Positions 28,012 through 31,319 of a DNA stretch of 64,000 nt are shown here, one piece after another. The stretch covers positions 1-64,000 of the forward strand of contig NZ_JAUSLW010000030.1 in the NCBI RefSeq assembly GCF_030645195.1. Reading direction: 5' to 3'. The position numbers were made by a program, and so were the translations under genes. Position 1 is the first letter of the stretch, and each line of letters begins with the position of its first letter. Source of the stretch: Phenylobacterium sp. GTDB lineage: Bacteria; Pseudomonadota; Alphaproteobacteria; Caulobacterales; Caulobacteraceae. The notes beneath the pieces are model-generated. The model did not search any database, had not been told where the DNA came from, and saw only the letters and a program-made list of their open reading frames with translations.

Positions 28012-28548
28012 CTAAGCCCCGCTGGCGATCCCCAGGGTCTCGTCGGCCATGACGTCGGAGGCGTCGTCGGCGTCCATGATCTTCAGCAGCCGGATCCGGG
28101 CGCGGTTCACCCGGCTCTTGATGGTGCCAACCGCGCAGCCGCAGATGCTGGCGGCCTCTTCGTAGGAAAGCCCCGCCGCCCCCACCAGGATCAGGGCCTC
28201 GCGATGCTCATCGGGCAGCAACTTCAGGGCGTCCTGCATGGCGTGCATGGCCACGCTCCACTCCTGGGTCGGGGCCGACCTGAGCGTTCCGGCATACTCG
28301 CCCTGTTCGTCGCGCACCTCGCGGCGGCGGCGGATGACCTGGGTGTAGTAGGTGTTGCGCAGGATCGTGAACAGCCAGGCTCGCAGGTTGGTGCCGTCCT
28401 CGAACTTGTCGCGGTTGGTCCAGGCCTTGATCAGGGTGTCCTGGACCAGGTCGTCGGCGTCGGATCCATTGTGGCTCAAGGACCAGGCGAAGGCTCGCAG
28501 CGCAGGGATCATGCGCACGACGTCGTCGCGCCAGGTGTCGCCGGACAT
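28012..28548 (-). CDS. ECF sigma factor, EcfG/ECF15-like
   Basis: RNA polymerase sigma factor with regions 2 and 4 only, 178 aa. Region 2: DADDLVQDTLIKAW (about 30-43) and LRAWLFTILRNTYY. Region 4: LKLLPDEHREALILVGAAGLSYEEAASICGCAVGTIKSRVNRAR. This pattern fits the alphaproteobacterial EcfG/SigT-SigU general-stress group. No phyR or nepR gene is in the window, so it may be a secondary, EcfG-controlled paralogue. A matching GGAAC-N16-CGTT promoter lies upstream, which suggests auto- or cross-regulation by an EcfG-type sigma. Confidence 0.9.
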   Translation of the reverse strand: MSGDTWRDDVVRMIPALRAFAWSLSHNGSDADDLVQDTLIKAWTNRDKFEDGTNLRAWLFTILRNTYYTQVIRRRREVRDEQGEYAGTLRSAPTQEWSVAMHAMQDALKLLPDEHREALILVGAAGLSYEEAASICGCAVGTIKSRVNRARIRLLKIMDADDASDVMADETLGIASGA

Positions 28549-28617: not shown

Positions 28618-28642
28618 AACGCGCGCAGACTCCATCTGTTCC
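28618..28642 (-). promoter_or_regulatory. EcfG-type promoter of the sigma factor gene
   Basis: On the minus strand GGAAC (28642-28638), 16 bases, then CGTT (28621-28618): an exact match to the alphaproteobacterial EcfG general-stress consensus GGAAC-N16/17-CGTT. The leader to ATG 28548 would be about 60 bases. Confidence 0.75.
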
Positions 28643-28675
28643 GCCTTGCGGTTGAGCGCGCGGCCCCCAATCTAG

Positions 28676-28701
28676 GGAACGAAGAACGACCTTCGGTCGT
28701 T
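28676..28701 (+). promoter_or_regulatory. EcfG-type promoter of the egtB-egtD gene
   Basis: GGAAC (28676-28680), 17 bases, then CGTT (28698-28701), again an exact consensus match. It is divergent from the sigma-gene promoter with 33 bases between the two -35 elements. The leader to ATG 28778 is about 70 bases. A perfect inverted repeat AACGACC-TTC-GGTCGTT overlaps the spacer and -10. Confidence 0.75.
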
Positions 28702-28777
28702 GACGGAAACCTGGGGGCAGGCTTCCTCGTGGTTCGCACCGCGACATCTCACACGCGTTCAGTTCGAAGGAGTATCC

Positions 28778-31000
28778 ATGGCGCCCTCCGATGACGCAGG
28801 TCCGTTGCCCGCCCCGCTCCGCGGCGTCCTTGACCAGTCGGTGGGGCGGTATCACCGTGTCCGCCAGGCCACCGAGGATCTCGTGCGGTTCCTGTCCAGC
28901 GAGGACATGGCCGCCCAGTCGATGCCTGACGCCAGCCCCGCCAAGTGGCACCTGGCTCATACCAGCTGGTTCTTCGAGACCTTCATGCTCGCGCCGAACC
29001 TGCCGGGCTACCGCCTCTTCGATCCCCGCTACGCCTACCTGTTCAATTCCTATTACGAGGCCCTGGGCCCGCGGCAGCCGCGGCCCGAGCGCGGCCTGCT
29101 GACCCGGCCCTCCCGCGACGAGGTCCTGGCCTACCGAGCCCACGTGGACGAAGCGATGCACGACCTGCTGTCCTCCGGGACGCCGGGCCTGGCCGAGCTG
29201 TTGGACCTGGGCCTGGCCCATGAGGAGCAGCACCAGGAACTGATCCTGATGGACATCCTGCACCTCTTCGCCCAGTCGCCCCTGAAGCCCGCCTATTCCC
29301 CCACCACCGCCCTGCCGGTGAGCGGCGATCCGGGGCCGGCCGGGACAGTGGACTTCGATGGCGGTCTGGTGGAGATCGGCCATGGCGGCGGGGGCTTCGC
29401 CTTCGACAACGAGGGGCCGCGCCACCAGGTCTTCCTCCAGCCCTTCAAGCTGGCCGACCGGCTGGTGACCAATGGCGAGTGGCTGGCCTTCATGGCCGAC
29501 GGCGGCTACGTCCGCCCGGAACTTTGGCTGGCCGAGGGCTGGGCCCAGGTCCAGGCCCAGGTCTGGCGCGCGCCGCTCTACTGGCAGGAGGCCGCCCACG
29601 GCTGGCTGGCCATGACCCTGCAGGGCCTGCGCGCCGTCGCGCCCCATGCCCCGGTCACCCACATCAGCTTCTACGAGGCCGACGCCTATGCGACCTGGGC
29701 CGGCGCCCGCCTGCCCACCGAGGCCGAATGGGAGCACGCCGCGGCGGGCCTGCCCATCGCCGGCAACTTCATGGGCTCGGGCCAGCTCGGCCCGGCCGCC
29801 ACCCAGGCCGGGGAGGGGCTGCGCCAGATGTTCGGCGACGTCTGGGAATGGACCCGCAGCGCCTATTCCCCCTATCCGGGCTTCCATCCGGCCGCCGGCG
29901 CGGTGGGGGAGTACAACGGCAAGTTCATGATCGGCCAGATGGTGCTGCGCGGCGGCGGCTGCGCCACACCGGAGCACCATGTGCGGGCGACCTACCGCAA
30001 CTTCTTCCACCCGCAGCAACGCTGGATGTTCTCGGGCCTGCGCCTGGCCTGGGACCGCCCCCCGAAGCAGGCCCTGGCCGAGGATGGCAGCTTCGCCGCC
30101 GACGTACTGGCGGGGCTGGCCAAGCCGCGGAAGTCGATCCCGGCCAAATACTTCTACGACGCCGAGGGCTCACGGCTGTTCGAGGAGATCTGCGACCTGC
30201 CGGAATACTATCCCACCCGCACCGAGGCCGCCCTGCTGCGCGCCAAGGCCGGCGAGATGGCCGCGGCGATCCCGGCCGGCGCGGCCCTGGTGGAGTTCGG
30301 CAGCGGGGCCAGCACCAAGACCCGTCTCCTGCTGGACGCCGCGCCGCAGTTGGCGGCCTACGTCCCCATCGACATCAGCAAGGCCGCCCTGGACGCCGCG
30401 GCGCAGGCTATCGGTCGCGACTATCCCGATCTGGTGGTGGCGCCCCTGGTGGACGACTTCACCACCGCCCTCAGCCTGCCGCCCGAGGTGTCGGGCATGA
30501 CCAGCGTCGGCTTCTTCCCCGGTTCCACCATCGGCAATTTCCGCCCCGACGAGGCGATCGCCTTCCTGGCCGGGGCGCGCCGCCTGCTGGGCCATGGCGC
30601 GGCCTTCCTGGTGGGGATGGACATCGTCAAGGACGAGGCGACCCTGGTGGCGGCCTATGACGACGCCCGGGGCGTCACGGCGGCCTTCAACCTCAACCTG
30701 CTGACCCGCATCAACCGCGAGCTCGACGGCGACTTCGACCTGGACGCCTTCCAGCACCGCGCGGTGTGGAACGCCCAGGAGAGCCGGATGGAGATGCACC
30801 TGGTGAGCACGCGCGCCCAGAGCGTCTCGGTGGCGGGGCGCAGCTTCGCCTTCGCGGCCGGGGAGACCCTGCACACCGAGAACTCCTACAAGTTCACGGT
30901 CGATGGCTTCGGAAAGCTGGCGGCGGCGGCGGGGTGGCGGCTGGAGCAGCGCTGGGAAAGCGCGGCGCCGAGCTTCGCCATGGTGCTGCTGAGGGCCTAG
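28778..31000 (+). CDS. egtB-egtD: EgtB-EgtD fusion: sulfoxide synthase + histidine methyltransferase
   Basis: Single 740-aa polypeptide. Residues 1-426 are EgtB-like: a DinB_2 domain with iron ligands H61 (WHLAHTSWFFE) and H148/H152 (HEEQHQE), then an FGE-sulfatase domain (NGEWLAF, ISFYEADAYATWAGARLPTE, GDVWEWT, FSGLRLA). Residues about 435-740 are EgtD-like SAM-dependent histidine N-methyltransferase: PAKYFYDAEGSRLFEEI, the SAM loop VEFGSGASTKTRLLLD and GFFPGSTIGNF. Together they cover both core steps to the ergothioneine sulfoxide; no egtA, egtC or egtE is adjacent. AAGGAG precedes ATG 28778. An EcfG-type promoter suggests stress control. Confidence 0.9.
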   Translation: MAPSDDAGPLPAPLRGVLDQSVGRYHRVRQATEDLVRFLSSEDMAAQSMPDASPAKWHLAHTSWFFETFMLAPNLPGYRLFDPRYAYLFNSYYEALGPRQPRPERGLLTRPSRDEVLAYRAHVDEAMHDLLSSGTPGLAELLDLGLAHEEQHQELILMDILHLFAQSPLKPAYSPTTALPVSGDPGPAGTVDFDGGLVEIGHGGGGFAFDNEGPRHQVFLQPFKLADRLVTNGEWLAFMADGGYVRPELWLAEGWAQVQAQVWRAPLYWQEAAHGWLAMTLQGLRAVAPHAPVTHISFYEADAYATWAGARLPTEAEWEHAAAGLPIAGNFMGSGQLGPAATQAGEGLRQMFGDVWEWTRSAYSPYPGFHPAAGAVGEYNGKFMIGQMVLRGGGCATPEHHVRATYRNFFHPQQRWMFSGLRLAWDRPPKQALAEDGSFAADVLAGLAKPRKSIPAKYFYDAEGSRLFEEICDLPEYYPTRTEAALLRAKAGEMAAAIPAGAALVEFGSGASTKTRLLLDAAPQLAAYVPIDISKAALDAAAQAIGRDYPDLVVAPLVDDFTTALSLPPEVSGMTSVGFFPGSTIGNFRPDEAIAFLAGARRLLGHGAAFLVGMDIVKDEATLVAAYDDARGVTAAFNLNLLTRINRELDGDFDLDAFQHRAVWNAQESRMEMHLVSTRAQSVSVAGRSFAFAAGETLHTENSYKFTVDGFGKLAAAAGWRLEQRWESAAPSFAMVLLRA

Positions 31001-31103: not shown

Positions 31104-31319
31104 TCAGCCTTCCAGCGGGCCGCGGGTGCGACCGCCGCCGCGGGAAGATTCGCCGCCCTTGCGCCCGGCCGAGGCCGCGAGGTCGCGGTCCTTGGCGAAG
31201 CTGCGTTTCTCCCCCGGCACGCTGGCGCCGCCCTTGCGGGCGATCTCACGCCGGCGCTCGGGGTTCATGGCGGCGAATCCGCGACGGGACTTCGGCTTGG
31301 CGTTGGGATCGAGGTCCAT
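31104..31319 (-). CDS. KGG-repeat stress protein (YciG/GsiB-like)
   Basis: 71-aa highly basic hydrophilic protein with KGG repeats: RRGFAAMNPERRREIARKGG, then KDRDLAASAGRKGGESS. Proteins with these repeats are induced by general stress in many bacteria and behave as small disordered, hydrophilin-like proteins. AGGAG precedes the ATG. I see no GGAAC-N16/17-CGTT site upstream, so sigma control is not proven, but the position beside the ECF sigma/egt locus fits a stress island. Confidence 0.85.
   Translation of the reverse strand: MDLDPNAKPKSRRGFAAMNPERRREIARKGGASVPGEKRSFAKDRDLAASAGRKGGESSRGGGRTRGPLEG

Follow-up and report, generated by a model that had tools for sequence, protein, structure and literature searches.

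Two EcfG-type promoters stand back to back between a sigma factor gene and a fused egtB-egtD gene in a Phenylobacterium genome, within the 64-kb window (the whole stretch of DNA that was analyzed, 64,000 nucleotides). In our judgment it is quite likely that both are real promoters and that they carry a cascade from the canonical EcfG to a second ecfG gene and to egtBD, with ergothioneine as the output. Since the gene pair and its promoters recur in many related genomes, ergothioneine is very probably made here within the general stress response. A link between that response and ergothioneine is already known elsewhere, from two sphingomonads; new are the ecfG2/egtBD module with its conserved divergent layout, how widely it is spread, and the occurrence of a second NepR next to the sigma gene in several relatives (not in this genome). 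The features concerned are:

28012..28548, minus strand: ecfG2-like sigma gene, a second EcfG (ECF15) paralogue of 178 aa, assigned from Pfam, structure and tree
28618..28642, minus strand: EcfG-type promoter, sigma side; exact GGAAC-N16-CGTT, predicted transcription start at about 28611, 5' UTR of about 60 nt
28676..28701, plus strand: EcfG-type promoter, egtBD side; exact GGAAC-N17-CGTT, predicted transcription start at about 28708, 5' UTR of about 70 nt
28778..31000, plus strand: egtB-egtD fusion; EgtB sulfoxide synthase at about residues 24-424, EgtD histidine N-alpha-methyltransferase at residues 439-737
31104..31319, minus strand: gene for a KGG-motif protein (Pfam KGG), convergent neighbor of egtBD

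The promoter pair and its conservation

A motif scan of the 64-kb window returned two exact matches to GGAAC-N16/17-CGTT, both in the sigma/egtBD gap and separated by 33 bases (28643-28675); an earlier sequence-only reading of this DNA had reported the same two sites at the same spacing, correct to the base. Each site lies about 70 bp 5' of a well-formed gene start. The sigma gene begins with an ATG at 28548 (minus strand) that has GAGGAAA upstream as its ribosome-binding site, and egtB begins with an ATG at 28778 (plus strand), served by the ribosome-binding site GAAGGAG at 28766-28772. We also considered an in-frame TTG at 28700 as the egtB start and rejected it for a transcript from the EcfG-type promoter, because the codon lies inside the -10 element and so cannot start egtB on that transcript. 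No terminator or known RNA was found in the gap. Together, the spacer and -10 element of the egt promoter (28685-28701) make up a perfect inverted repeat, AACGACC-TTC-GGTCGTT, which we considered as a possible operator. Its counterpart in the closest relative, G132, differs in sequence but is likewise perfect (AACGCC-GTTC-GGCGTT), and by eye we saw none in the other relatives.

Taken alone, two matches per 64 kb are unremarkable, as shuffled versions of the window held a mean of 0.55 exact matches and at least two appeared in 10 of 100 shuffles. Genome-wide, the exact motif occurred 39 times versus 35 for the reversed pattern, which is no enrichment, and we rejected the genome-wide count as evidence for want of any excess. 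These figures favor the view that both sites match a short, degenerate consensus by chance, a view to which we nevertheless give almost no credence, since the conservation of the motif in orthologous gaps, described below, is decisive that the pair is not chance. Among the 39 genomic matches there were only two divergent pairs within 100 bp, one in the sigma/egtBD gap and the other in the phyR / nepR-ecfG gap on contig C137, a place where one would look for EcfG promoters; chance alone would give about 0.03 close pairs genome-wide, whatever their orientation.

Our family sample comprised 149 genomes, with a sigma orthologue in 44 and EgtBD in 115, and the sigma gene and egtB are divergent in 37 genomes belonging to 11 genus codes, which made up the gap set. 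The sequence-only reading had proposed a search for the same divergent pair in related genomes, and that search found it: the exact motif is present on the sigma side of 35 of the 37 gaps, on the egt side of 23 (the other 14 lack an exact match there), and on both sides of 21. Dinucleotide shuffles of the 37 gaps gave expectations of 0.09 for the sigma side, 0.14 for the egt side and 0.013 for both, and the reversed pattern occurred in no gap on the sigma side and in one on the egt side. GGAAC-N16-CGTT was, moreover, the most widespread 5-N16-4 pattern on the sigma strand (33/37 gaps), and for the sigma side conservation across orthologous gaps already refutes chance. Because related genomes do not give independent counts, genus counts are the safer measure; these put the motif on the sigma side in 10 of 11 genera and on the egt side in 5 of 11. 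The arrangement was also found in Phenylobacterium sp. Root1290 and Caulobacter sp. S45.

The motif also accompanies egtB genes that have no sigma neighbor. Within the family sample it faced egtB in 19 of 58 such cases and pointed the opposite way in 3 of 58, with none for the reversed pattern. In genus g22 the motif is at 8/10 and 7/7 egtB genes (15/17 together), and the sigma factors checked there, in one or two genomes, do not include the second-EcfG lineage. The egt-side motif is absent from genera g14 (0/12) and g21 (0/9). Of 56 egtB upstream regions from other families of the class, 13 had the motif, and the reversed controls gave 0 and 1.

Two variant layouts were seen along the way. 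In seven relatives, a single near-palindrome of 27-30 bp, GGAA[C/A]...CGTTCC, can be read from either strand as an EcfG-type promoter or near-promoter (exact both ways in L108, L109 and L111, near in L043, L060, L062 and L110), and in these genomes the sigma gene and egtB would share one site. In family f33 (L298, L305 and L313), the region upstream of egtB has EcfG motifs in both orientations; the one that points away from egtB faces an apparent acyl-CoA dehydrogenase gene (L298, L313) or thiolase gene (L305).

The KGG gene at the far end of egtBD had been taken as support for a stress theme. Every one of the 21 relatives tested has it next to egtBD, even those that lack the sigma gene, and its product reaches 100% identity over matched residues. 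However, an EcfG motif was found within 350 bp upstream of the KGG gene in none of the 21 relatives, nor in the window, and on these promoter grounds we discarded it as support. The gene is linked to egtBD, and its membership in the regulon would be hypothetical.

The sigma factor and the enzyme

The sequence-only reading had called the sigma factor EcfG-like and the divergent gene product an EgtB-EgtD enzyme, and both assignments were borne out. The sigma protein has the Pfam domains Sigma70_r2, Sigma70_r4_2 and PhyR_sigma2. Its best solved structure is 5uxx, a Bartonella EcfG-type sigma (E 7e-50; next ECF 6e-22), and its nearest relatives outside the family are nearly all canonical EcfGs encoded beside nepR/phyR. 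Identity to canonical EcfGs is 45-56%. In a tree built with L056 and two long outgroup sequences left out, the sigma protein and its orthologues formed one branch (bootstrap 98, SH-aLRT 56) and the canonical Caulobacteraceae EcfGs a separate one (96/94), so the tree rejects it as an orthologue of canonical SigT/EcfG. The only NepR above the Pfam cut-off in the genome is on contig C137; with none beside the sigma gene, we conclude that the latter is a paralogue and not a copy of the canonical EcfG. It is thus EcfG-like as a non-canonical, second EcfG. Region 4.2, the helix that reads the -35 element, is nearly identical between the canonical and the second EcfG (CAVGT[IV]KSRV[NS]RAR).

Several relatives have further partner-switch genes at this locus. 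Genera g4, g9, g10, g11 and g19 have a second NepR-like ORF that is convergent with the sigma orthologue (seen in L054, L055, L057, L058, L060, L061, L062 and L207), and Caulobacter sp. S45 (L207) has, in addition, a PhyR gene near that orthologue. Together these suggest that a more complete partner switch once stood at this locus.

The genome's canonical general-stress locus, phyR / nepR-ecfG, is on contig C137, and its divergent promoters match the same consensus as the two sites in the sigma/egtBD gap. Of the 39 exact motifs in the genome, 9 fall within 10 kb at this locus (L040, 6764-16541), a cluster that may help to find more stress genes and a GsrN-like small RNA.

For the enzyme, both domains scored above curated cut-offs: the EgtB part matched TIGR03440 at 579 bits (cut-off 360) and the EgtD part TIGR03438 at 406 bits (cut-off 291). 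SenA (selenoneine synthase) and OvoA were rejected at 349 bits (cut-off 420) and 83 bits (cut-off 400), respectively. The closest structures, 6o6l for EgtB and 4pim for EgtD, fit as well, with the metal-binding His motifs conserved in the former and the active-site motifs FYDA, GSTIGN and TE.S.KF aligning to the latter. A search with an EgtE model, in a genome that is 92% complete, gave a best match of 31.6 bits (cut-off 400); the model also fires in 14 of 14 control genomes and may not cover alphaproteobacterial lyases.

Precedents in other Alphaproteobacteria

Control of egtB and egtD by the general stress response was reported in 2020, as a first, for Sphingopyxis granuli (SGRAN_4050/4049; PMC7083833). 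Table 1 of an earlier transcriptome study of Sphingomonas melonis gives #0598, a 'TIGR03440 family protein', at log2 -4.0 and #0597, a 'probable methyltransferase', at log2 -3.9, both among the top positively EcfG-regulated genes (PMC6599016). We identify #0598 as EgtB because TIGR03440 is the EgtB model, the same one that the fusion protein matches, and from its adjacency we infer that #0597 is EgtD. As far as that table and the text searched go, the S. melonis study contained the link between the general stress response and ergothioneine without naming it (PMC6599016). The present locus resembles both sphingomonads in having egtB and egtD under the same sigma class, shown there by ecfG-mutant transcriptomes and read here from sequence; it differs in that their egtB and egtD are separate genes with no sigma neighbor described, whereas here they are fused beside a sigma gene. 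In Methylobacterium aquaticum 22A, where egtBD is needed for ergothioneine and for heat and UV resistance (PMC4621440), the two alphaproteobacterial genes are likewise together, but in tandem rather than as one fused ORF.

Paired EcfG-type sigma factors have precedents as well. In Caulobacter crescentus, sigU depends strongly on SigT and carries a SigT motif (PMC3073932); in S. granuli, ecfG1 is under EcfG2 control (PMC7083833); in R. etli, two EcfGs prefer their own promoters and the second has a largely separate regulon (PMC3892343); and in M. extorquens some EcfGs bind NepR and others do not (PMC4814048). Like SigT/SigU of C. crescentus and EcfG1/EcfG2 of S. granuli and R. etli, the genome described here has two EcfG-type sigmas with the same -35/-10 consensus, the second of them behind an EcfG-type promoter and without an adjoining nepR. 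Unlike in those pairs, the second sigma forms a separate Caulobacteraceae branch among the sequences compared, a set to which SigU did not belong, and its gene is held in a divergent pair with egtB(D). A search of the open-access literature turned up no account in which egtB is paired with an ecfG paralogue.

Control of the two genes

The prediction that a thiol antioxidant is made within the general stress response is supported by the conserved promoters and by EcfG-dependent egtB/egtD in two other alphaproteobacteria. In the cascade that we favor, stress would act through the PhyR-NepR partner switch to free the canonical EcfG encoded on contig C137, which would transcribe the second ecfG gene and egtBD from the two promoters of the gap. 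The second EcfG would then probably contribute to transcription from both promoters, including that of its own gene, thereby amplifying or prolonging the response. EgtBD would make hercynine and its sulfoxide conjugate, making ergothioneine a general-stress product. Transcription from the gap in this organism, the sigma that reads each promoter, the positive loop and completion to ergothioneine are what we infer, the loop because a consensus common to both sigmas does not tell which of them reads it. We count in favor of the cascade that egtB keeps the motif where the second sigma is missing, and the near-identical region 4.2 in favor of the second EcfG reading the same promoters, although by the R. 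etli precedent the positive loop could be wired otherwise. The sigU precedent and the shared consensus at phyR and nepR-ecfG also speak for the cascade; the 14 gaps and the genera g14 and g21 lacking an exact egt-side motif, and the EgtE search that stayed below its cut-off, weigh against it.

Alternatively, both promoters might be read mainly by the second EcfG, in which case the locus would be a stress module that is partly separate and has an input of its own. We hold this to be unlikely, while noting that several observations lean toward it. In genus g1, 12 of 14 genomes that have the sigma gene carry the egt motif, versus 0 of 4 that lack the gene (Fisher 0.005), a contrast that is a hint only, as the four sigma-less genomes may share a single loss event. 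The second NepR convergent to the sigma gene in five genera and the PhyR gene near it in Caulobacter sp. S45 would suit a module with its own input, and EcfG1 and EcfG2 of R. etli differ in promoter preference. Against these stand genus g22, where 15 of 17 egtB genes have the motif and the sigmas (checked in one or two genomes) do not include the second-EcfG lineage, and the occurrence of the same consensus at phyR and nepR-ecfG. The egt-side site could also be active but minor, with egtBD transcribed mainly from an unrecognized housekeeping promoter and stress control small. Several genera do keep egtBD without the egt-side motif, and some bacteria produce ergothioneine constitutively. A simple scan of the gap, however, found no sigma-70-like promoter, which is a weak point given that alphaproteobacterial promoters deviate, and egtB in S. 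melonis is strongly EcfG-dependent, with the tabulated log2 of -4.0. We therefore consider a mainly housekeeping egtBD improbable.

A more speculative extension, which we think doubtful, is that a second partner-switch module (the sigma, a NepR of its own and in places PhyR) co-evolved with ergothioneine synthesis and survives at this locus as a remnant, and that the Phenylobacterium lineage lost the NepR, leaving the second sigma as an unrestrained latch. If so, the second sigma, once transcribed, would hold ergothioneine synthesis and part of the stress regulon on.

The conserved promoter arrangement connects a low-molecular-weight thiol with the general stress response of Alphaproteobacteria, and it suggests that control of egtB as known from two sphingomonads is widespread. 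Because one short gap reports on both a second EcfG and a defined metabolic output, it is a place to probe the role of second EcfGs, for which relatives with and without the sigma gene, or with and without its NepR, offer natural comparisons.
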